From Pseudoxanthomonas mexicana (GTDB taxonomy: Bacteria; Pseudomonadota; Gammaproteobacteria; Xanthomonadales; Xanthomonadaceae), in the NCBI RefSeq assembly GCF_010093385.1, contig NZ_PDWV01000002.1, positions 62,001 through 126,000 on the forward strand: a stretch of DNA of 64,000 nucleotides. The letters run 5' to 3'. Below the pieces are notes generated by a model that did no database searches, was not told the origin of the DNA, and worked only from the letters and a program-made list of their open reading frames with translations. Positions within the stretch are counted from its first letter, which is position 1, and each line of letters opens with the position of its first letter. Positions 37,106 through 49,819 of this stretch are shown here, piece after piece. The translations under genes were made by a program, and so were the position numbers.

Positions 37106-38932
37106 TTACTCCACCGTCACCGACTTCGCCAGGTTGCGCGGCTTGTCCACGTCGGTGCCGCGGGCCAGGGCGGTGTGGTAGGCCAGCAGCTGCACGGGGA
37201 TGGTGTGCACGATGGGACTGAGCACGCCCACGTGGCGCGGGGTGCGGATGACGTGCACGCCTTCGGACTCGCTGAAGTGGCTGTCCTGGTCGGTGAACAC
37301 GAACAGTTCGCCGCCGCGCGCGCGCACTTCCTGCATGTTGGATTTCACTTTCTCCAGCAGCACGTCGTTCGGCGCGATCACCACCACCGGCATGTCCGCA
37401 TCCACCAGTGCCAGCGGACCGTGCTTCAGCTCGCCGGCCGGATAGGCCTCGGCGTGGATGTAGGAGATTTCCTTCAGCTTGAGCGCGCCTTCCAGCGCGA
37501 TCGGATAATGCAGGCCGCGGCCGAGGAACAACGCATCCGACTTCGGTGCGAAACGTTCCGCCCACGCAGCGATCTGCGGCTCCAGGTTCAACGCGTGCTG
37601 CACGCTGCCCGGCAGATGGCGTAGCTGCTCCAGGTAATCGGCTTCCTGCTCCGGCGTGACCTTGCCACGCAGCTTGCCCAGCACGACGGTCAACTGGAAC
37701 AGCGCCGCCAGCTGGGTGGTGAAGGCCTTGGTGGACGCCACGCCGATCTCGGCGCCGGCACGCGTGTAGCAGACCAGCTCGCTGGCGCGCGGGATGGCGC
37801 TCTCCGGCACGTTGCAGATCGACAGCGTGTGCTCATGGCCCAGCGACTTGGCGTACTTCAGCGCCTCCATCGTGTCCAGCGTTTCGCCGGACTGGGAAAT
37901 GGTGACGATCAGGTGCTTGGGGTTCGCGTACGCGGCGCGGTAGCGGTATTCGCTGGCGATCTCCACGTTGCACGGCACGCCGGCGATGGCTTCCAGCCAG
38001 TAGCGCGCGGTCATGCCGGCGTAGTAGCTGGTGCCGCAGGCGAGGATCTGCACGCCCTCGATGTCCTTCAGCGCCGCTTCGGCGTTGGCGCCGAACAGCG
38101 CGGGCGAGAAACCGCCATCGACCACGGCCTCGATGGTGTCGGCGATCGCGCGCGGTTGCTCGTGGATTTCCTTTTGCATGAAGTGGCGGTACGGGCCCAG
38201 CTCCAGCGAGGCCAGCGACACGTCGGAGACGTGCACGTCGCGCTGCACGGGCTGGTCCTTGCCGTCGAACACCTTGACCGACGCGCGCGTCACTTCGGCG
38301 GTATCGCCCTCCTCCAGGAAGATCACCCGGCGCGTGGCCTGGATGATCGCGGAGACGTCGGAGGCGATGAAGTTCTCGCCTTCGCCCACGCCGATCAACA
38401 GCGGGCAGCCCATGCGGGCGCAGACCATGCGGTCCGGCTCCTGGCGGCTCACCACGGCCAGCGCATAGGCGCCGGTCAGTTCCTTCACCGTGCGCTGCAG
38501 CGCCGCCAGCAGGTCGTCGCCGCCCTTCAGATGGTGGTGCATCAGATGCGCGATGACTTCGGTATCGGTCTGCGACTCGAACACGTAGCCGAGGGCGCGC
38601 AGCTTCTCGCGCTGTTCCTCGTGATTCTCGATGATGCCGTTGTGCACCAGCGCCACACCATGGCTGATGTGCGGATGCGCATTGGCCTCGGTGACGCCAC
38701 CGTGGGTCGCCCAGCGCGTATGGCCGATACCCAGGCTCGCGTTGAAGCCCTCGGCAGCGGCGGCGCCCTCCATTTCGGCCACGCGCCCGGTGCGGCGCAC
38801 GCGGCGCACGTCCTGCTGATCGACCACCGCGATCCCCGCGGAATCGTAGCCCCGGTATTCCAGCCGCTTCAGTCCTTCGATCAGTACCGGCACCACGTCG
38901 CGATCGGCGATCGCGCCCACAATTCCGCACAT
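37106..38932 (-). CDS. glmS: Glutamine-fructose-6-phosphate aminotransferase GlmS
   Basis: GlmS makes glucosamine-6-phosphate from fructose-6-phosphate and glutamine, the entry to UDP-GlcNAc, peptidoglycan and LPS. The 608-residue product has the N-terminal nucleophile Cys2 (MCGIVGAI), a glutamine amidotransferase domain (about 2-240) and two SIS domains ([25 protein letters not shown]-terminus [11 protein letters not shown]). glmU, which acts later in the same pathway, is in this window at 48458-49819. The stop codon directly abuts that of the Mur-ligase-like gene on the other strand. Confidence 0.96.
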
Positions 38933-38964
38933 AGGCCTGCTTCTTCCTTCTGAGTGAAACGAGC

Positions 38965-39045
38965 GGACATTCTACGTGTCCGGTACTGGACAGGCCCTGT
39001 CCGGCGAGTGTCCGCGGACACCCGGACAGCCTTCAGCGCCGGACA
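38965..39045 (+). promoter_or_regulatory. Cluster of TGTCC/GGACA half-sites: putative enhancer for the sigma54 regulator
   Basis: Eight half-sites lie in 81 bases: TGTCC at 38977, 38998 and 39009; GGACA at 38965, 38988, 39016, 39024 and 39041. Two form strong palindromes: 38977-38992 (TGTCC-N6-GGACA) and 39008-39021 (GTGTCCG/CGGACAC, perfect). They sit about 30-110 bases upstream of the -24 element at 39075, where enhancer-binding proteins usually bind, and between the divergent glmS and ABC-exporter genes. Confidence 0.65.
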
Positions 39046-39072
39046 ACCCCCTTTTGAATCAATCATTTGCGT

Positions 39073-39089
39073 TTGGCACGCATCCTGCT
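39073..39089 (+). promoter_or_regulatory. Sigma54 (-24/-12) promoter of the ABC exporter operon
   Basis: TTGGCACGCATCCTGCT matches the sigma54 consensus: GG at 39075-39076 and GC at 39087-39088 with exactly ten bases between. Transcription should start near 39100, 18 bases before the first ATG of the adaptor gene. A sigma54-activating response regulator is encoded in the same cluster at 45093-46430. Confidence 0.8.
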
Positions 39090-39117
39090 GAGTACGGCAG
39101 GTCATTCCAAACAACGC

Positions 39118-40395
39118 ATGCCGACGATGATTCGGGACACCTCCGCGCAAGACCGAGTGCTCAGTTCCACCCAGGCCCGCCCGGCCTGGCGCCGTTGGGT
39201 ATGGCCCGCCGCGGGCGGCGCCCTGCTGCTGGCCGGCATCGTGTTCGCCGCGCGCGGCTGGCTGGCCGGCACCACGTCGGTCGACGGCGCCCGGCTGCGG
39301 GTCGCCGAAGTCACCCGGGGCGACCTGGTCCGCGACATCGCCGCCGATGGCCGCGTGATCGCCGCCAACAGCCCCACCCTGTACGCAGTGGCGGGCGGCG
39401 TGGTCACGTTGAAGGTGGTCGCCGGCGACAAGGTGACCCAGGGCCAGCCGCTGGCCGAGATCGACAGCCCGGAGCTGCGCAGCAAGCTGGCGCAGGAGCA
39501 GACCACGCTGGCCGGCCTGGAAGCCGAAGCCAGCCGCGCCACGCTGGATGCCAGCGTCACCCGTGCCAATGCGCAGAAGGCGCTGGACCAGGCCGGGATC
39601 GAGCGCCAGGCGGCCGAGCGCACCCTGCAGCGCTACCAGCGCGGATTCGAGGGCGGCGCGGTGCCGCAGGTCGACGTGCTGGAAGCGCAGGACAACCTGC
39701 GCAAGGCCGAGATCGCGCTGGCCCACGCGCGCAAGGACGCGGGCCTGCAGGGCCAGGGCGCGGGCCTGGATGCGCGCAACAAACAGCTGCTGGCCGAACG
39801 CCAGCGCGCGGTGGTGGCCGAAGTGCAGCGCCAGGTGGATGCGCTGACCCTGCGCGCACCGTTCGATGGTCAGGTCGGCCAGATCCAGGCCGTGCAACGC
39901 TCCAACGTGGCGATCAACGCGCCGGTGCTGAGCGTGGTCGACCTGTCGGTGTTCGAGGTCGAGATCAAGGTGCCGGAAAGCTTCGCCCGTGACCTCGCCA
40001 TCGGCATGCCGGCCACGCTGACCAGCGCCGGCCAGCCCTACCCGGGCGAGATTTCCGCGGTGTCGCCGGAAGTGGTGAACGGCGAGGTCGTCACCCGCCT
40101 GCGCTTCTCCGACAAGCAGCCGCCCGGCCTGCGCCAGAACCAGCGCCTGTCCGCACGCATCCTGATGGAGACGCGCCGCAACGTGCTGATGGTCGAACGC
40201 GGCCCGTTCGTCGAACAGGGTGGCGGCCGCCAGGCCTACGTCATGGACGGCAGTTCCGCGGTGCGTCGCCCGGTGCAGCTGGGCGCCAGCAGCCTGAGCC
40301 ACGTCGAAGTGCTGGGCGGCCTGCAGCCCGGCGACAAGGTGGTCGTCTCCGGCAGCGACCAGTTCGGCGACGCCGAGCGCGTCTCAATCAACTGA
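39118..40395 (+). CDS. Periplasmic adaptor (membrane fusion) protein of ABC exporter
   Basis: This is a 425-residue HlyD/MacA-type adaptor that bridges inner-membrane permeases to an outer-membrane channel. One N-terminal transmembrane helix (about 30-52) is followed by a split lipoyl/barrel-sandwich domain (GDLVRDIAADGRVIA; LRAPFDGQVGQIQAV), a coiled-coil hairpin (about 135-235) and a beta-barrel region. ATGs at 39118 and 39127 are both possible starts. No outer-membrane factor gene is in the cluster. It is the first gene downstream of the sigma54 promoter. Confidence 0.85.
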   Translation: MPTMIRDTSAQDRVLSSTQARPAWRRWVWPAAGGALLLAGIVFAARGWLAGTTSVDGARLRVAEVTRGDLVRDIAADGRVIAANSPTLYAVAGGVVTLKVVAGDKVTQGQPLAEIDSPELRSKLAQEQTTLAGLEAEASRATLDASVTRANAQKALDQAGIERQAAERTLQRYQRGFEGGAVPQVDVLEAQDNLRKAEIALAHARKDAGLQGQGAGLDARNKQLLAERQRAVVAEVQRQVDALTLRAPFDGQVGQIQAVQRSNVAINAPVLSVVDLSVFEVEIKVPESFARDLAIGMPATLTSAGQPYPGEISAVSPEVVNGEVVTRLRFSDKQPPGLRQNQRLSARILMETRRNVLMVERGPFVEQGGGRQAYVMDGSSAVRRPVQLGASSLSHVEVLGGLQPGDKVVVSGSDQFGDAERVSIN

Positions 40396-40472
40396 TCCGC
40401 ATCACCCGCCTTCCCCACGCGTCCTCCCCTGCGTCATTCACTCCGCACCCGACCCCGAATAAGGAACCCGCC

Positions 40473-41195
40473 ATGCTTGAGATGCGCCAAGTCGCCAAGG
40501 TCTACCGCACCGAACAGGTGGAAACGCATGCGCTGCGTTCCCTCGACCTGCATGTCCGCGAGGGCGAGTTCGTCGCCGTCACCGGTCCGTCGGGTTCGGG
40601 CAAGACCACCTTCCTCAACATCGCCGGCCTGCTGGAGACCTTCACCGGCGGGCAGTTCCTGCTCGACGGCCAGGACGTCAGCCACCTGGGCGACGACGCG
40701 CGCTCGCGGCTGCGCAACCAGAAGATCGGCTTCATCTTCCAGGGCTTCAACCTGATCCCCGACCTCAACCTGTTCGACAACGTCGACGTGCCGCTGCGCT
40801 ACCGCGGCATGCCCGCCGCCGAACGCAAGCAGCGCATCGAAGACGCGCTGGCGCGCGTCGGCCTGGGTTCGCGCATGAAGCATTACCCGGCCGAACTGTC
40901 GGGCGGACAGCAGCAGCGCACCGCGATCGCACGCGCCCTGGCCGGCAGCCCGCGCCTGCTGCTGGCGGACGAACCGACCGGCAACCTGGACTCGCAGATG
41001 GCCCGCGGCGTGATGGAGCTGCTGGAGGAGATCAACCGCCAGGGCACCACCATCATCATGGTCACGCACGATCCCGAACTCGCCGCACGCGCGCAGCGCA
41101 ACGTGCACATCGTGGACGGCATGGCCACCGACCTGTCGGTGGAGCCCGCCCTGATCCGCGCGGCGCATGCCGCCGAAGCCAACGCCTCCGCGTAA
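40473..41195 (+). CDS. ABC transporter ATP-binding protein, MacB/LolD type
   Basis: This is a 240-residue ATPase: Walker A GPSGSGKTT at 38-46, Q-loop GFIFQGFNLIPDL near 88, signature LSGGQQQR near 143, Walker B LLLADEPTGNLDS near 163 and a switch His in VTHDPELA. The sequence is of the LolD/MacB class that powers mechanotransmission-type exporters with FtsX-like permeases, three of which follow. An AAGGAA ribosome-binding site is nine bases before the ATG. Confidence 0.9.
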   Translation: MLEMRQVAKVYRTEQVETHALRSLDLHVREGEFVAVTGPSGSGKTTFLNIAGLLETFTGGQFLLDGQDVSHLGDDARSRLRNQKIGFIFQGFNLIPDLNLFDNVDVPLRYRGMPAAERKQRIEDALARVGLGSRMKHYPAELSGGQQQRTAIARALAGSPRLLLADEPTGNLDSQMARGVMELLEEINRQGTTIIMVTHDPELAARAQRNVHIVDGMATDLSVEPALIRAAHAAEANASA

Positions 41196-41239
41196 GGCGG
41201 CCCCCCGGCCCACCGCAGACAGCATCCAGACGACCACAT

Positions 41240-41262
41240 GGTGGGCCAGGGCCCACCCTACG
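41240..41262. repeat. Single REP unit of the GTGGGCC family
   Basis: The palindrome GTGGGCC-AGG-GCCCACC followed by CTACG is the same unit found in pairs at 50955-51014, 53352-53407 and 61440-61500. Here it is alone, in the spacer between the ATPase and first permease genes, and ends at the ribosome-binding GGAG of the latter. Confidence 0.8.
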
Positions 41263-41271
41263 GAGCCAAGC

Positions 41272-42582
41272 ATGTTCGGCTACTACTTTTCCCTCGCGCT
41301 GCGCAGCTTCAAGCGCAACAAGGCGCTGACCTTCCTGATGGTGCTGGCGATCGCGCTGGGCATCGGCGCCAGTATGACCACGCTGACCGTGTTCTATGTG
41401 CTGTCCGGCGATCCCATCCCGCAGAAGAGCGACAAGCTGTTCTACCCCCGCATCGACCCGCGCTCGGCGAATGGCTTCACCCCCGGCGACGAGCCGGAGG
41501 ACCAGTTCACCCGCTACGATGCCGAACGCATGCTGCGCGACAGGAAGGGCGACCGGCAGGCCTTCATGACCGGTGGCGCTTCTTCGATCGAGGCCGAAGA
41601 CGGCAGGATCGAACCCTTCCGCATCGATTCGCGCTACACCACGGCCGATTTCTTCCCGATGTTCGATGTGCCGTTCCGCTACGGCAACGGCTGGTCGGCG
41701 GCGGATGACGAATCGCGTGCACGCGTCGCCGTCATCTCCAAGGCGCTGAACGAAAAGCTGTTCGGCGGCGCCAACAGCGTGGGCCGCGAGATCAAGGCCT
41801 CCGGCGCGACGTTCCGCGTGATTGGCGTGCTGGACGAGTGGCGGCCGGCTCCCAAGTTCTACGACATGACCCAGGACCGCTTCACCGAGGTGGAGCAGCT
41901 CTTCGTGCCGTTCTGGACGTCGCGCGCGCTGAAGATGGGCACCCAGGGCAACATGAACTGCTGGGGCGACTCCAGTGCGGAAGAAGAGGGCTCGCAGGGT
42001 CCGAATGCGCCGTGCTCGTGGCTGCAGTACTGGGTCGAGCTGGGCACGCCTGAGAAGGTCGAGGCCTACAAGCAGTACCTGAAGAACTATTCCGACCAGC
42101 AGCGTGCAGCGGGCCGTTTCGAGCGCCCGACCAACGTGGACCTGCACAACGTCATGCAGTGGCTGGACAAGCAGGGCGCGGTGCCCAGCGACGTCCGCCT
42201 GCAGGTATGGCTGGCGTTCGGCTTCCTGGCGGTCTGCCTGCTCAACACCGTGGGACTGCTGCTGGCGAAGTTCCTGGGCCGCGCGTCGCAGATCGGCGTG
42301 CGGCGCGCCCTGGGTGCGACGCGCAAGGCCATCTTCGCGCAGTGCCTGGTGGAAGCGGGCACGGTCGGCCTGGTCGGCGGCGTGCTCGGCCTGGTGCTGG
42401 CCTGGCTGGGCTTGCTGGCCGTTCGCCAGCAGCCCGCCGGCTATGCCGACCTCGCGCACATGGATCTGAAGATGCTGCTGGCCACCTTCGCGCTGGCGAT
42501 CGTCGCCAGTCTGCTCGCCGGCATGCTGCCCGCGTGGCGCGCCATGCAGGTGACGCCCGCGATCCAGCTCAAGAGCCAGTGA
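41272..42582 (+). CDS. MacB/FtsX-like permease 1 of ABC exporter
   Basis: This is a 436-residue type VII-like ABC permease: one N-terminal transmembrane helix (about 20-45, LTFLMVLAIALGIGASMTT), a large periplasmic domain (about 50-300) and three C-terminal helices with the FtsX pattern GRASQIGVRRALGATRKAIF. The ATG at 41272 was chosen because it follows GGAG and starts at the expected cytoplasmic MFGYYFSLALRSFKRN. The substrate is unknown. Confidence 0.87.
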   Translation: MFGYYFSLALRSFKRNKALTFLMVLAIALGIGASMTTLTVFYVLSGDPIPQKSDKLFYPRIDPRSANGFTPGDEPEDQFTRYDAERMLRDRKGDRQAFMTGGASSIEAEDGRIEPFRIDSRYTTADFFPMFDVPFRYGNGWSAADDESRARVAVISKALNEKLFGGANSVGREIKASGATFRVIGVLDEWRPAPKFYDMTQDRFTEVEQLFVPFWTSRALKMGTQGNMNCWGDSSAEEEGSQGPNAPCSWLQYWVELGTPEKVEAYKQYLKNYSDQQRAAGRFERPTNVDLHNVMQWLDKQGAVPSDVRLQVWLAFGFLAVCLLNTVGLLLAKFLGRASQIGVRRALGATRKAIFAQCLVEAGTVGLVGGVLGLVLAWLGLLAVRQQPAGYADLAHMDLKMLLATFALAIVASLLAGMLPAWRAMQVTPAIQLKSQ

Positions 42583-42605
42583 CCCATCCATCCAAGAGGC
42601 ACGTC

Positions 42606-43829
42606 ATGGACATCCGCCCCATTCTCTCCACCCTGGCCCGCCACAAGACGGCCGCCGCGCTGATCGTGCTGGAAGTGGCGCTGTCGTGCGCCATCATCTG
42701 CAACGCGGTCTTCCTCATCACCCAGCGCCTGGAGCGCATCGACCGCCCCACCGGCATGGCGAACGAGGAGATCGTGCGCATCAGCATGGGCAACCTCGGC
42801 GACAACCCCGAGGCCGACGCGCTGGTGAAGCAGGACGTCGCCAGCCTGCGTGCGCTGCCGGGCGTGAAGGCCGCAGGCAGCATCAACCACGTGCCGTTCG
42901 ACAACTCGTCGTGGAACAGCTCCATCCAGCTCGCTCCCGAGCAGGAACGTCCCAGCGCGCAGGCCAACATCTACCTGGGCGACGCCGTGGTGGAAACGCT
43001 GGGCCTGAAGCTGGCTGAAGGTCGCGACTTCAACCCGGACGAGTATTCCAACTGGACCGAGATGAACAAGCAGAACGCCCGGGGGAACCTGCCCGCGGTG
43101 ATCCTGAGCCGCGATTTGGCGGAGAAGCTGTTCCCGGGCGAGAGCGCCATCGGCAAGAACATCTATTCGTGGAATGCCGACAACACGCCGCACCGTGTGG
43201 TCGGCGTGGTCGATCGGTTGATCCGCACCAACGACAACGGTGGTCCTGCCGAAGCCGGTTACACGATGATCCTGCCGGCCAGGGATCTCACCATGGGCAC
43301 CTTCGTCCTGCGCACCGCACCGGAGCGTCGCACGGAGGTGCTGAAGGCGGCGCTGGCGACACTGGAGAAGAACAGCGCCCGTCGGCTCGTGCTTCGCGAC
43401 GGCACGTTCGAGGACATCAAGCAAAACTACTATCGCGGCGACCGCGCGATGGCCTGGCTGCTGCTGACCGTGATCGTCTCGCTGCTGGTCGTCACCGCGC
43501 TGGGCATCGTGGGCCTGGCCAGCTTCTGGGTACAGCAGCGCACCAAGCAGATCGGCATCCGTCGTGCGCTGGGCGCGACCAAGGGCCAGATCCTGCGCTA
43601 CTTCCAGACCGAGAACTTCCTGCTGGCCACGCTGGGTATCGTCATCGGCATGATCCTGGCCTACGGCATCAACCAGATGCTGATGGGCAAGTACGAACGG
43701 CCGCGCCTGCCGCTGCTCTACTTGCCGATCGGGGCCGTGCTGCTGTGGCTGCTGGGCCAGGCGGCCGTGTACGGTCCGGCCCGTAAGGCCGCCTCGGTGC
43801 CGCCGGCGGTCGCCACCCGCACCGCCTGA
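42606..43829 (+). CDS. MacB/FtsX-like permease 2 of ABC exporter
   Basis: This is a 407-residue paralogue of the preceding permease: N-terminal helix (about 17-40), periplasmic domain (MacB_PCD-like, about 45-280) and three C-terminal helices with QQRTKQIGIRRALGATKGQILRYF. Permeases 1 and 2 could form a heterodimer with a dimer of the shared ATPase. It begins 23 bases after permease 1. Confidence 0.87.
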   Translation: MDIRPILSTLARHKTAAALIVLEVALSCAIICNAVFLITQRLERIDRPTGMANEEIVRISMGNLGDNPEADALVKQDVASLRALPGVKAAGSINHVPFDNSSWNSSIQLAPEQERPSAQANIYLGDAVVETLGLKLAEGRDFNPDEYSNWTEMNKQNARGNLPAVILSRDLAEKLFPGESAIGKNIYSWNADNTPHRVVGVVDRLIRTNDNGGPAEAGYTMILPARDLTMGTFVLRTAPERRTEVLKAALATLEKNSARRLVLRDGTFEDIKQNYYRGDRAMAWLLLTVIVSLLVVTALGIVGLASFWVQQRTKQIGIRRALGATKGQILRYFQTENFLLATLGIVIGMILAYGINQMLMGKYERPRLPLLYLPIGAVLLWLLGQAAVYGPARKAASVPPAVATRTA

Positions 43830-43886
43830 GCCTTGCGCTCCCTGCCGCGCACGCCCCGCCGGCGTGCGCGGCCCCTCGGGGTTTCC

Positions 43887-45089
43887 ATGTCTTCCTTCCT
43901 GCTGCTGGGACGCCACCATGCGGGCATCGGGTGGATCGCGCTGCAACTGGCGATCGGCGTGGTGCTGTGCCTGCAGGCGTGGCAGGCGCTCGTCGGGCTG
44001 CATGTTGCGCGTACCACACCCGACGGGATCGACGACACCGGCCTGCTGCTGGTGCCGTGGATGCAGATGGCGCCGGCATCGGATCCGGGCGTGGCCGATG
44101 TGCTTGGCCGGTTGCGCAACGTCCCGGGCGTGCTGTCGGCCACCGCGGCCAACCAGGCGCCATATGACGCCACCGCGTGGAGCGTGCAGGTCTGGACCGC
44201 GACGCATCCCGCAACGAAGCACGTCGTGTCGGTCTTCCTCGGCGACGAGGACTTCGCCTCCACACTCGGCATGGCGACGTCCGCAGGGCGACATTTCATG
44301 ACAGATGAATTCCGCGACTACCGTGGCGACCAGACCGATCTGCAGGCGGGCACCCAATCTGTCCTCGTGTCCTCGGCTCTGGCCTCCCGGCTCTACGGCA
44401 GATCGGATCCGCTTGGGCGCCCCTTGCTGATGGCCCCGGGCGCGCGGCTGCGCGTGGTCGGTGTGTTCGAGCGCCTGCCTCCACCGGCGGGCGCCCGCGA
44501 TACGGGTGACCTGGCCGTGGTGCTGCCGGTGCGGATGTCGCGGGCAGCAGACGCCCGATTCATCGTCCGCCATGCAGCCGATCCGGAGAGCGTCGCAACG
44601 CGCATCCGGGCCGCGCTGGCGGCAGCGCATCCCTCCGTCGTGGTGGCCCATCCCGTGGACATGGCCGCGCTGCGCGAAGCGTCCCTGCATGCGCCGCGAT
44701 CCCGCGCATGGTGGTGGTCGGGCGCCTGCATCGCATGGTGGCTCTCGACACTGGGCCTGCTGATGCTAGGCGGACAGCGCTGGGTGCAGGAACATGCACG
44801 GGAATTCAGCCTGCGCCGCGCGGCTGGCGCCACCGGCCGCCAACTCGCGCGACGGTTGCGTCTCGAGTACCTCGGCCTGGCCTGCGCGGCGGCGTCGGTC
44901 GGGCTGGCGGGTGGACAATGGCTGTTGCCCCATCTTGTGCGCGGGTCTGCCCCGCCCTCGCACGGGGCCCTGGTGGCCGCTGCCGCGTGGGCGATGCTGG
45001 CCGTGCAGCTGGCCGCCGCATGGCCGGCCCATCTGGCCCGCCGCATTCCGCCGCACCTCGTGAGCCGCACCCCTTCGGTTAGGCTATAG
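43887..45089 (+). CDS. Divergent FtsX-like permease 3 of ABC exporter
   Basis: This is a 400-residue protein with the same outline (N-terminal helix about 12-35, periplasmic domain, three C-terminal helices, FSLRRAAGATGRQLARRL), but with much weaker conservation than permeases 1 and 2. The ATG at 43887 was chosen; a TTG at 43833 is in frame but has no family support. The ribosome-binding site is poor. It ends three bases before the response-regulator gene. It may be an accessory or decaying paralogue. Confidence 0.78.
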   Translation: MSSFLLLGRHHAGIGWIALQLAIGVVLCLQAWQALVGLHVARTTPDGIDDTGLLLVPWMQMAPASDPGVADVLGRLRNVPGVLSATAANQAPYDATAWSVQVWTATHPATKHVVSVFLGDEDFASTLGMATSAGRHFMTDEFRDYRGDQTDLQAGTQSVLVSSALASRLYGRSDPLGRPLLMAPGARLRVVGVFERLPPPAGARDTGDLAVVLPVRMSRAADARFIVRHAADPESVATRIRAALAAAHPSVVVAHPVDMAALREASLHAPRSRAWWWSGACIAWWLSTLGLLMLGGQRWVQEHAREFSLRRAAGATGRQLARRLRLEYLGLACAAASVGLAGGQWLLPHLVRGSAPPSHGALVAAAAWAMLAVQLAAAWPAHLARRIPPHLVSRTPSVRL

Positions 45090-45092
45090 CGC

Positions 45093-46426
<1,334 letters not shown>

Positions 46427-46430
<4 letters not shown>

Positions 46431-47764
46431 TCCGCCGCTCGCTCGCCGGCCGCGTACTGTCCTGGCTGCTGCCGCTACTGGCGGTGGCGCTGGTGCTGCC
46501 GGTCGCCCTGTCGCATGCGCTGCAGGACGACGTGCTGGCTGTGCTGCTGTCGGCGATCATCGTGCTGCCGCTGGCGGCCTGGGCGATCCATCGCGGCCTG
46601 CGCAGCACACGATCGCTGTTCCGCGCGTTGTCCGGCAGCGTCAACAGCTACCGCGACGGCGAATACAACTTCGGCATCCACTGGCAGGGCAGCGACGAAC
46701 TCGCCGAGCTCGTGCGTTCGCACGCCGCCCTGGGCGAAGTCCTGCGCGAGCAGCGGCAGACGCTGGTGCAACGCGAACTGCTGCTCGACACGATGGTGCA
46801 GAACACCCCCGTGGCGATGCTGCTGGTGGCGCCCGGGGGCGACGGCGTGCGGCGCGTCGTGTTCGCCAACGTCGCCGCACGCAAGCTGCTGCACGGCGGC
46901 TGGAAACTGGAAGGCCAGGACTACGACAGCCTGCTGTCCGCCTCGCCGGTGGAGATGCGCGAGGCGCTGGCCCGCAGCGGCGACAGCCTGTTCGCCATCG
47001 GAAGCGAGGAGGAAGACGGCGAGGAGCAGGTCTACCACCTGGCCCGCCGCAATTTCCGGCTCAACGGATGCCCGCACGAACTGCTGCTGCTGCGCTTGCT
47101 GACCAACGAACTGCGCCGGCAGGAAGTGATGACGTGGAAGAAGGTGATCCGCGTGATCAGCCACGAGCTCAACAACTCGCTGGCACCCGTGGCGTCGCTG
47201 GCGCACTCCGGCGCGGAACTCGTCCGGCGCGGCAAGCATGAGCGGCTGGAGGAGGTCTTCGGCACCATCGAGGATCGCGCACGCCATCTGGAAGGCTTCA
47301 TCCGCGGCTATGCGCGTTTCGCCAAGCTGCCCCAACCGCAGCTGCAGACGGTGCGCTGGCGCGGCTTCCTGGAGGGACTGCGGCGCCAGATCGGCTTTGA
47401 GCTGGAGATGCGCGATGCCGACGTCGAAGGCCGCATCGATCTGGCGCAGATCGAGCAGGCGCTGCTGAACCTGCTGAAGAATGCGCACGAGTCAGGCACC
47501 TCCGCCGACGGCGTGTCCGTGCGCGTCAGCCGTCTGCCGGGCTGGGTGCGCATCGAGGTGATGGACCGCGGCACCGGCATGAACGACGCGGTACTGCAGA
47601 ACGCGCTGGTGCCGTTCTATTCCACCAAGCGCAACGGCACCGGCCTGGGGCTGGCGCTGACACGCGAGATCATCGAAGCGCACGGCGGCCGCCTGTCGCT
47701 GCACAACCGCGATGGCGGCGGCCTGTGCGTGGCGATCCAGTTGCCGGACGCGCCGGCGGCGTAA
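46427..47764 (+). CDS. Membrane sensor histidine kinase, NtrY-like
   Basis: This is a 445-residue kinase: two N-terminal transmembrane helices (about 10-32 and 38-55) with almost no periplasmic loop, a HAMP/PAS-like region (60-230), phospho-acceptor His246 (VISHELNNSLAP) and a catalytic domain with N box LLNLLKNAHES, G1 VMDRGTGMND and G2 GTGLGLAL. Lack of a periplasmic sensor suggests it senses a membrane or cytoplasmic signal, or the transporter itself. The HELNNSLAP motif is like that of NtrY kinases. It is the last gene of the exporter cluster. Confidence 0.9.
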
Positions 47765-47784
47765 TGGCGGGCATCTAGTGTCCG

Positions 47785-48444
47785 CTACGTCGATGATTCC
47801 GTACCGTTGCGACCGTTGTACCTCCACCTCCTTTCACTCAGCCAGAGCGAAGGTTCGGTGGTGCTGCCGCAGCGTTCCTTGAGCAGCCTAATCCACATAT
47901 CGCGACGTGCGACTGCGCCAGCGAACAGGCTCCCCTTGTGAATTAACAGCAGTTCCGCCCTCCGCACCTTCAACACGTCGACCGAGAGCAGGGCATGTGA
48001 TACGCGCATCCAGAAGGCTTCTCGTCCAATCCTGTGCATTGCTCTGCACATCGCCGCGAATTCCCGCTTGATTGGCCGATCCAGGTAGCCGAGCGCAGCT
48101 CGCTCCAATCGCGACCGCGCAAGATCGGAAAGTGGACAGTGCACCAGCCATCGCCAGAGGTACTCCTTGAGATAGCCCGAACGGAAATGGATCGGGTCTG
48201 CAAGCAAGAAAGTGACCGCCGTCTCCAGCGCATGGGGATCATGCTGCCTGACGCGATTAAATACGGCGCATCCACCGGGATACATCAACGAGTCGAAGCG
48301 CTCATGAAACTCGCGACAGGCTTCCAGATGCTTATCGAGGGACGCCGGATCGGATGCCCGACGACCACGCGACGCGACATGGATCCGCTCGCTCAACCTG
48401 TTGAGCTCTTCCGAGTTCCTGAGGATGTGCTTGGAGCTGACCAT
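47785..48444 (-). CDS. Orphan hypothetical protein, 219 residues
   Basis: I do not recognise this protein. It is basic and helical, rich in Arg, His, Cys and Trp (LKEYLWRWLVHCPLSDLARSRLERAALGYLDRP), with no signal peptide or membrane helix. Its base composition is visibly less GC-rich than its neighbours and codon choice is relaxed, suggesting recent acquisition. It lies 13 bases downstream of glmU on the same strand and converges on the histidine-kinase gene. No mobile-element gene is adjacent. Confidence 0.6.
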   Translation of the reverse strand: MVSSKHILRNSEELNRLSERIHVASRGRRASDPASLDKHLEACREFHERFDSLMYPGGCAVFNRVRQHDPHALETAVTFLLADPIHFRSGYLKEYLWRWLVHCPLSDLARSRLERAALGYLDRPIKREFAAMCRAMHRIGREAFWMRVSHALLSVDVLKVRRAELLLIHKGSLFAGAVARRDMWIRLLKERCGSTTEPSLWLSERRWRYNGRNGTESST

Positions 48445-48457
48445 GCCAATGCGACGG

Positions 48458-49819
48458 CTATTTCTTCATCGGCCGCTGCCAACCCTCGACCGTCATCTGG
48501 CGCGCGCGCGCGACCGTCAGCTTGTCGGCCGGCGCGTTCTTCGAGATCACCGAACCGGCGCCGATCGTCGCGCCATCGGCCAGCGTCACCGGCGCGACCA
48601 GGGACGAGTTCGAGCCGACGAACACGCGGTCGCCGATCGTCGTGGTGGACTTGTTCACGCCGTCGTAGTTGCAGGTGATGGTACCGGCGCCGATGTTGGT
48701 GCCCGTGCCGATGACGGCGTCACCGAGATACGTCAGATGGTTCGCCTTGCTGCCCGTACCGATGCGCGCGTTCTTCGTCTCGACGAAGTTGCCCACGTGC
48801 ACGCCATCAGCGAGGACGGTGCCCGGGCGCAGCCGCGCATAGGGACCGATCAGCGCCGCGCCTTCGCTGACGACGCCCTCCAGGTCACAGTGCGCGCGTA
48901 CCTGCGTGCCCGCGGCGAGGGTCACGTCCTTCAGGCGGGTGAACGGGCCGATGACCACGCCATCGCCCAGTTCCACCCTGCCTTCCAGCACCACGTCGAC
49001 ATCGATCTGCACGTCGCGACCGACGGTCACCGTGCCGCGCTGGTCGAAGCGCGCCGGGTCGACCAGGCGTGCGCCCTGCACGCACAGCGCACGCGCGGCG
49101 CGCAGCTGATAGGCGCGCTCGAGCTGCGAGAGCTGCCACGGATCGTTGGCGCCCTCGGCCTCGATGGGCTCGCCGACCAGCACCATTTCCGCCGGGGTGA
49201 ATTCCTCGGCCGCCATCGCGAAGACGTCGGTCAGGTAGTACTCACCCTGCGCATTCGCGTTGGACAGGCGGGCCAGCCAGCCCTTCAGCGCGCTGCCATC
49301 GGCGGCGATGATGCCCGTGTTGATGGTGCGGATGCGGCGCTGCTCCTCGTCGGCGTCCTTGTGCTCGACGATGGCGGCCACGCGGCCAGCCTCATCGCGC
49401 ACGATGCGTCCGTAACCGGAGGGATCGGCGGGTTCCGCGACCAGCACCGCCAAGCGGCCCGGCGCGTCCAGCAGGCGTTGCAGCGTCTCGCTGCGGGTCA
49501 GGGGAACATCGCCGTACAGCACAAGCACGCGTGCGCCGTCCGGCACGTCCGGCATCGCCTGCATGACGGCGTGGCCCGTGCCGAGCTGCTGCGCCTGATG
49601 CGCCCAGTGCAGGTCCGCCTGGTCGGCGAAGGCCGCTTGCACCTGGTCGCCGCCGTGGCCGTAGACCACGTGCACGCCCGCCGGCGACAGCGCGCGCGCC
49701 GCTTCGATCACGTGCGCCAGCATCGGCCGCCCGGCGATGGGCTGCAGCACCTTGGGCAGCGCGGACTTCATGCGCTTGCCCTCACCGGCGGCGAGGATGA
49801 CGACGTGGAGTGGTTTCAT
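48458..49819 (-). CDS. glmU: Bifunctional GlcN-1-P acetyltransferase / GlcNAc-1-P uridyltransferase GlmU
   Basis: GlmU makes UDP-N-acetylglucosamine in two steps. The 453-residue product has an N-terminal nucleotidyltransferase domain ([19 protein letters not shown] at about 8-26; [17 protein letters not shown]) and a C-terminal left-handed beta-helix with hexapeptide repeats (about 250-440; [57 protein letters not shown]). The length is normal. It is downstream of the atp operon, as commonly seen in gammaproteobacteria, but a GtrA-like gene on the opposite strand lies in between. Confidence 0.96.

Follow-up and report, generated by a model that had tools for sequence, protein, structure and literature searches.

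A conserved sigma54 promoter and half-site array suggest a two-locus regulon for an FtsX-type exporter operon in Xanthomonadaceae

What switches on an exporter operon that ends in genes for its own response regulator and sensor kinase, and does that switch reach further than the operon itself? The locus that raises this question lies in a 3.97-Mb genome (G000), in a stretch of 64,000 nucleotides that was analysed as a whole and is here called the window; coordinates are window positions unless another locus or contig is named. Among the best 80 of 459 regulator matches, the closest named relatives are Pseudoxanthomonas, and the regulator is 96% identical in Pseudoxanthomonas sp. Root630. The reading that we favour, with a probability of roughly 80%, is that the kinase–regulator pair drives its own exporter operon and an unlinked small protein through sigma54.

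The operon runs on the forward strand, divergently from glmS (37106-38932, reverse strand; TIGR01135, 870 bits, above cut-off). It opens with a periplasmic adaptor, or membrane fusion protein (39118-40395; HlyD_3, E 1.1e-16; above the RND_mfp subfamily cut-off), whose start is more likely to be ATG 39127 (MIRDTS) than ATG 39118, since several order-level relatives show an ATG at that place. An ABC ATPase of the MacB/LolD/FtsE type follows (40473-41195; ABC_tran, E 7.3e-32), and then three permeases with MacB_PCD and FtsX domains (41266-42582, 42591-43829 and 43833-45089). The third permease diverges fastest, with best matches of 23-69% in the named loci drawn from the best 80 of 459. The response regulator (45093-46430) has NtrC-type architecture, with a receiver domain (Response_reg, 9.7e-21), an AAA+ domain (Sigma54_activat, 1.1e-65) and a Fis-type helix-turn-helix (HTH_8, 5.3e-12). 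Its GAFTGA loop takes the variant form GAYTGA and its receiver motif QDMNF is invariant, both in 81 of 81 sequences (80 loci plus the window). The sensor histidine kinase (46427-47764) carries a HELNN H-box, kept in 80 of 81 sequences. We predict that it lacks a periplasmic sensor domain because its two N-terminal hydrophobic segments lie only 4-15 residues apart (median 9 across 81 kinases, by a hydropathy heuristic). The GAYTGA-bearing NtrC-family regulator and the kinase without a periplasmic sensor that an earlier note had read from this cluster are both borne out. A 3-nt gap separates the third permease from the regulator, whose frame shares its last 4 nt with that of the kinase, which fits a single transcript. 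Scanning 38900-48500 for sigma70-type promoters gave none against 0.6 expected by chance, a weak pointer, and the genome encodes two rpoN genes scoring above the TIGR02395 cut-off. The order adaptor, ATPase, permeases, regulator, kinase recurs in Pseudoxanthomonas, Stenotrophomonas and Xanthomonas.

Several features of the surroundings vary. Between the kinase and glmU lies a 219-aa open frame (47785-48444, reverse strand) with no Pfam or NCBIfam match; among 110 loci, its only homolog is in L034 (59%). When the frames of 12 relatives' operons were read, some showed alternating arrays of P1/P2-type FtsX permeases (for example L109, L096, L051 and L045), with seven permeases upstream of the regulator in the covered part of L109 and six in L096. 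A DUF4440 gene precedes the regulator in three tested relatives (L047:9459-9929, L053:9444-9965 and L096:9359-9874); the window's operon has none between permeases and regulator.

The earlier note had also placed a -24/-12 promoter behind eight TGTCC/GGACA half-sites, and this description holds. The predicted sigma54 promoter TTGGCACGCATCCTGCT occupies 39073-39089 on the forward strand, 32-108 bp downstream of the half-sites, with a predicted +1 at about 39100. Its GG (39075-39076) and GC (39087-39088) stand at canonical spacing, giving the GG-N10-GC signature of a sigma54-dependent promoter, and it is one mismatch off TGGCACN5TTGCW. The motif alone is weak evidence: allowing two mismatches, the window yields 33 matches where 34.4 are expected, and a stricter form with one mismatch yields 6 where 3.1 are expected. 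The array is another matter. Its half-sites span 38965-39045, with TGTCC at 38977, 38998 and 39009 and the inverse, GGACA, at 38965, 38988, 39016, 39024 and 39041. No other 105-bp piece of the window is as dense in them; 0.48 would be expected from a first-order Markov model of the same region, and none of 5,000 simulations reached eight. Within the array, GTGTCCGCGGACAC (39008-39021) is a perfect 14-bp palindrome that continues into a third half-site as GTGTCCGCGGACAC-C-CGGACA (39008-39028, forward strand). On these counts and on the conservation described below, we take the array to be the predicted binding region of the regulator.

Phylogenetic footprinting, which the earlier note had proposed with loss of the -24/-12 bases in relatives as the outcome that would speak against it, showed no such loss. 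We sampled 30 close-relative loci found via the adaptor and 80 named loci found via the regulator (the best 80 of 459); the two sets share genomes, hence regions were dereplicated at 90% similarity. Ten of the 110 loci were dropped for a missing glmS or adaptor: nine are cut by contig or flank ends (L046, L049, L051, L058, L085, L096, L103, L106 and L109), and L023, which is uncut, was read separately. TGGCAY-N6-TGC is kept in all 100 glmS–adaptor intergenic regions, a count that includes four regions longer than 260 nt (L030, L062, L081 and L100) placed outside the dereplicated alignment. It is likewise kept in 48 of 48 dereplicated regions, where the TGGCA and TGC bases, including the GG and GC positions, are invariant. 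The bases interior to the -24/-12 elements show 33-65% identity there, apart from the first at 88%. Across the same 48 regions, mean identity is 93% over the core GTGTCCGCGGACAC-N-CGGACA, 42% over the 44-nt spacer between core and promoter, 43% downstream of the promoter and 49% upstream of the core; every region holds at least two half-sites at 35-90 nt upstream of the promoter. The pattern is that of two constrained, presumptive protein sites amid unconstrained DNA.

A search of the genome for further promoters of this kind yielded a second candidate target. TTGGCAC-N6-TGC occurs 14 times, against 6 for a reversed-pattern control. Counted over the 35-90 nt before each of them, half-sites number five at the exporter site, four at a site on contig C34 (L121), two at L127 and none at the eleven others. 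L127 is sigma54-like and its half-sites are scattered; its position inside a kinase coding frame led us to reject it. Behind the C34 site is an open frame (C34:26292-26672, equivalent to L131:1501-1881) for a 127-aa protein. Inspection by eye suggests a signal peptide, and the protein contains three imperfect IVDLPxVTVxPxAEDLAxY-type repeats; a Pfam search gave nothing significant (best E 0.13). Looser genome-wide patterns were less informative. The palindrome TGTCCN{2,7}GGACA matched 29 sites and its reversed control 16, so it is too unspecific to delimit a regulon; of six other palindromes fetched (L111-L116), none belongs to a cluster. GGACAN{20,50}TGGYRYN5YTGC returned 18 rows (10 forward and 8 reverse; control 2 and 7), of which two belong to the exporter promoter and one to the small-protein promoter; the other 15 were judged unconvincing by eye.

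The second promoter is conserved too. Of 37 genomes of the genus, 36 encode a homolog of the small protein; the remaining one (G005) has regulator and exporter though no small-protein match. A sigma54 site is kept 163-186 nt before the small-protein ATG in 29 of 30 fetched loci, and 20 of 20 dereplicated promoters hold 2-5 half-sites at -90 to -35 of it; L153 lies outside this alignment and count and was read separately. By profile search, the protein is found in 16 of 18 genomes of named loci (Stenotrophomonas, Xanthomonas, Pseudoxanthomonas and MAGs), the two misses (L075 and L110) both being MAGs. The sigma54 site is present in all 16, with at least two half-sites in 15 and one in L179. Neither the single sequence nor the profile found the protein in any of 24 order-level genomes. 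The small protein and the exporter are not obligate partners, because at least 9 of those 24 genomes have exporter and regulator.

Between this sigma54 site and the small-protein gene lies a near-invariant element, GGTGTACTACCTTACTACCACACC (C34:26238-26261, equivalent to L121:1614-1637), whose pattern has its sole exact match in the window's genome at this place. The GGTGTAYTACNTTACTACCACACC-type element (GGTG-N16-CACC) is present in 16 of 16 profile-found loci, including L189, and reads GGTGTTTTAC in one Pseudoxanthomonas relative. It is probably a second, separate control and looks like the operator of another regulator; it is, tentatively, reminiscent of YtrA/GntR boxes. The parts of the HpaR1 paper that were covered (PMC4730234) do not give the motif.

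Comparing the two promoters refines the predicted binding site. In the window's genome, the small-protein promoter has GGACA in a single orientation, at -80, -68, -55 and -48 from TTGGCAC; the half-sites of the exporter promoter include TGTCC at -75 and -64 and GGACA at -57 and -49. In Xanthomonas and Stenotrophomonas, the arrangement TGTCC-GGACA-N1-2-GGACA is frequent at small-protein promoters. Common to both putative targets is a CGGACA pair about 48-57 nt upstream of TTGGCAC, and the palindromic TGTCC partner varies. The description of the array as a palindromic enhancer covers only part of this, the inverted TGTCC partner being common and not universal. IHF commonly assists sigma54 promoters, and an IHF-like site, AATCAATCATTTG (consensus WATCAANNNNTTR), lies at 39057-39069 on the forward strand, just upstream of the -24 element. 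The relaxed form TCAANNNNTTR occurs in 27 of 48 exporter promoters (Markov mean 0.34), in 26 of these at 15-16 nt 5' of TGGCA, and in 16 of 20 small-protein promoters (Markov mean 0.18). The strict consensus is matched in 7 of 48 exporter and 10 of 20 small-protein promoters, and even the relaxed form is absent from 21 of the 48 exporter promoters.

Does the regulator encoded in cis travel with the promoter? From 24 order-level genomes, we took the best adaptor operon of 15, all of other families (G057, with a strong adaptor match, was left out). A sigma54 site lies within 350 nt before the adaptor in nine (L194-L199, L201, L206 and L207). Seven of these promoters have at least two exact half-sites upstream, L196 has one and L199 none, with degenerate CGGACG repeats visible. 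The other six loci (L200, L202-L205 and L208) have no such sigma54 site and at most one half-site. Orthologs of the regulator (64-70% identity) occur in exactly the nine promoter-bearing genomes, against a best match of 46% or less in the six promoter-less ones (9 with both, 6 with neither; Fisher p 2.0e-4). One of the nine regulators (G048) has no exact GAxTGA. The nine and the six are not independent because the split follows families (f2, f3, f11 and f12 with; f4, f7, f9 and f10 without); counted by family, co-occurrence is 4 versus 4, with p about 0.014 by our own arithmetic.

The regulator sits inside the fetched adaptor stretch in five of the nine genomes, about 19 kb away on the same contig in G056, and 1 Mb off or on another contig in G038, G055 and G046. 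Since it is distant in these last three, the match between regulator and promoter is not mere linkage. Within 1.5 kb of the three distant regulators we found no permease match, and in the 1.5 kb upstream of them no half-sites; the G055 regulator has one loose sigma54-like match at -1445. The predicted feedback loop is thus not visible in these three lineages, and the earlier picture of a closed circuit does not always apply: the putative activator is encoded within the exporter operon in Pseudoxanthomonas, Stenotrophomonas and Xanthomonas, and apart from it in 3 of 9 order-level genomes.

Loss within the closer relatives offers a further view. The reduced genome G034 (2.0 Mb, 94% complete, 360 contigs) has no regulator ortholog (best match 39%) and no adaptor ortholog (best E 2.6e-13). 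Its small-protein gene and GGTG-N16-CACC element are intact, and the sigma54 site before that gene has eroded to TTGGAACG (L153:1335-1350), with one exact half-site left, at -56. This decay goes in the direction expected if the regulator serves the small-protein promoter; it is a single case, and the losses are perhaps partly assembly gaps. Two other genomes, G022 and G002, gave no adaptor match either, but they do encode the regulator (at 92% and 82%) and carry the small-protein promoter (L138 and L158).

These data bear on who reads the array. It could be that the sigma54 promoter is real and that some other enhancer-binding protein, with its gene elsewhere, reads the array; the cis regulator would then act on other genes. 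The genomes searched do encode many further NtrC-type regulators, but the ortholog of the cis regulator tracks the promoter in 15 of 15 fetched order-level genomes, and both the sites and its helix-turn-helix (GVIAQAAAELGLSRQALYRR with close variants) show high conservation. We consider another activator decidedly unlikely. Another alternative assigns the array to glmS, or to some other regulator of cell-wall precursors, and makes the sigma54 site incidental or separate; the hint of a cell-wall input had come from the same neighbourhood. The array does lie in the shared intergenic region. In 71 of 80 named loci (the best 80 of 459) the adaptor has glmS as its neighbour, and contig or flank ends truncate the remaining 9; among the 30 close-relative loci, glmS faces the adaptor in 29. 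A candidate glmS -10 box, TAGAAT (38969-38974, reverse strand), is overlapped by the distal half-sites in the window; the box reads ATTnTA in 40 and AGTGTA in 7 of the 48 dereplicated regions, and in 26 of them the candidate -10 to -35 span shares bases with a half-site.

Against this, the same half-sites stand before the sigma54 promoter of the unlinked small-protein gene, and conservation is highest in those proximal to that site rather than in those on the glmS side. The exception among the close relatives, L023 (G010), which is of the same genus, has no glmS match in the 1.5 kb upstream and still keeps its sigma54 site, preceded at -90 to -35 by four half-sites; order-level exporter promoters with half-sites likewise come without glmS in the fetched stretches. 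The cell-wall hint is thus not sustained, and an array belonging to glmS strikes us as very improbable. A milder version, in which the regulator also represses or tunes glmS from the array so that one signal trades glucosamine supply against export, would account for the distal half-sites on the candidate glmS -10/-35 region in the window and in 26 of 48 regions. The overlap is missing from the other 22, however, and L023 and the order-level stretches keep the promoter without a glmS partner, which makes such tuning unlikely. As an observation in its own right, the overlap of half-sites with the candidate glmS -10 region in the window (38969-38988) may allow cross-talk.

Returning to the kinase–regulator pair as the driver of both loci, we infer the following sequence of events. 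The membrane kinase, without a periplasmic sensor domain, would phosphorylate the NtrC-type regulator, as the gene pair suggests. The regulator would then bind the TGTCC/GGACA array, which lies 55-135 bp before the predicted start, a step strongly supported by the observed co-inheritance, and activate sigma54-containing RNA polymerase at the -24/-12 elements, whose bases are strongly constrained. Adaptor, ATPase, permeases, regulator and kinase would be transcribed, and the feedback should be positive because regulator and kinase lie within the transcribed operon. The same regulator would also turn on the unlinked small secreted repeat protein, whose sigma54 promoter carries these half-sites as well. 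The module probably answers some envelope-acting compound or stress, and the exporter would then remove or secrete something.

How does this proposal relate to what has been described? In Gammaproteobacteria, Opitutia and Bacteroidia, according to PMC12316311 (PLoS One 2025), predicted sigma54 promoters are enriched at permease genes of COG0577, and the authors claim the first evidence for such a link. That analysis is a genome-wide COG enrichment, and its covered part names no operon, activator, enhancer motif or second target. The claim that few MacAB-like exporters are known under sigma54 control needs two qualifications: 'MacAB-like' is a loose label here, and the link between FtsX-type permeases and sigma54 already has a statistical form in the covered part of PMC12316311. 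Our proposal turns that statistical link into one concrete circuit with an activator, a binding motif, a promoter, an exporter and a second target. The exporter is widespread in Xanthomonas, Stenotrophomonas and Pseudoxanthomonas and uncharacterised, and what it responds to becomes directly testable. The small secreted repeat protein emerges as a candidate partner or cargo that gene neighbourhood alone did not reveal. In their covered parts, sigma54 papers on Xanthomonas campestris (PMC7280030) and Xylella (PMC3224663) do not mention the operon, and the covered part of PMC11237479 has nothing on the circuit.

Set beside curated families, the exporter shares with MacA-MacB a periplasmic adaptor, a MacB-type ATPase and MacB_PCD/FtsX permease domains. 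It differs in scoring 69 bits against a MacA cut-off of 342 and 219 against a MacB cut-off of 966, and in having the ATPase and three permeases as separate genes. The duplicated permease ADOP (TIGR03434, cut-off 622 bits, two halves per chain) contrasts with three separate chains of 113-196 bits, and against the darobactin exporter DarBCD, too, the scores stay below the cut-offs (DarC 45 versus 450, DarD 263 versus 375 and DarB 26 versus 700 bits). By these scores, the exporter is related to the MacAB, ADOP and Dar families and passes none of their curated cut-offs. The two-component pair shares with NtrY/NtrX and NtrB/NtrC a REC-AAA+-HTH_8 regulator with a sigma54 interaction domain and a HELNN-type kinase. 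It falls under every cut-off among the 25 best of 89 NCBIfam matches (ntrC, 325 versus 559 bits), and differs in its GAYTGA in place of GAFTGA and in its linkage to an exporter.

The Bce-type system of Bacillus subtilis, BceAB-BceRS, couples an FtsX-type ABC transporter to a two-helix kinase with almost no extracellular loop, and the transporter is itself under feedback from this kinase; the regulators of such modules are of the OmpR type, and BceB contains ten helices. The kinase described here resembles that design in its two membrane helices and short loop, as judged by the hydropathy heuristic only. Its regulator is NtrC-type rather than OmpR-type and is paired with a sigma54 promoter, and its permeases carry MacB_PCD and come with a periplasmic adaptor. 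By analogy with Bce, the kinase may read the transporter. We hold as possible, though doubtful, the fuller picture of a Xanthomonadaceae two-locus sigma54 regulon in which an intramembrane-type kinase reads the state of the exporter, Bce-like in its input and NtrC/sigma54 in its output, and the small protein is cargo or a periplasmic partner. Our search of the open-access literature, with subscription papers outside its coverage, found no description of the operon, the regulator, the small protein or the circuit; the parts are standard, and it is their specific, conserved two-locus combination that this search did not find described.
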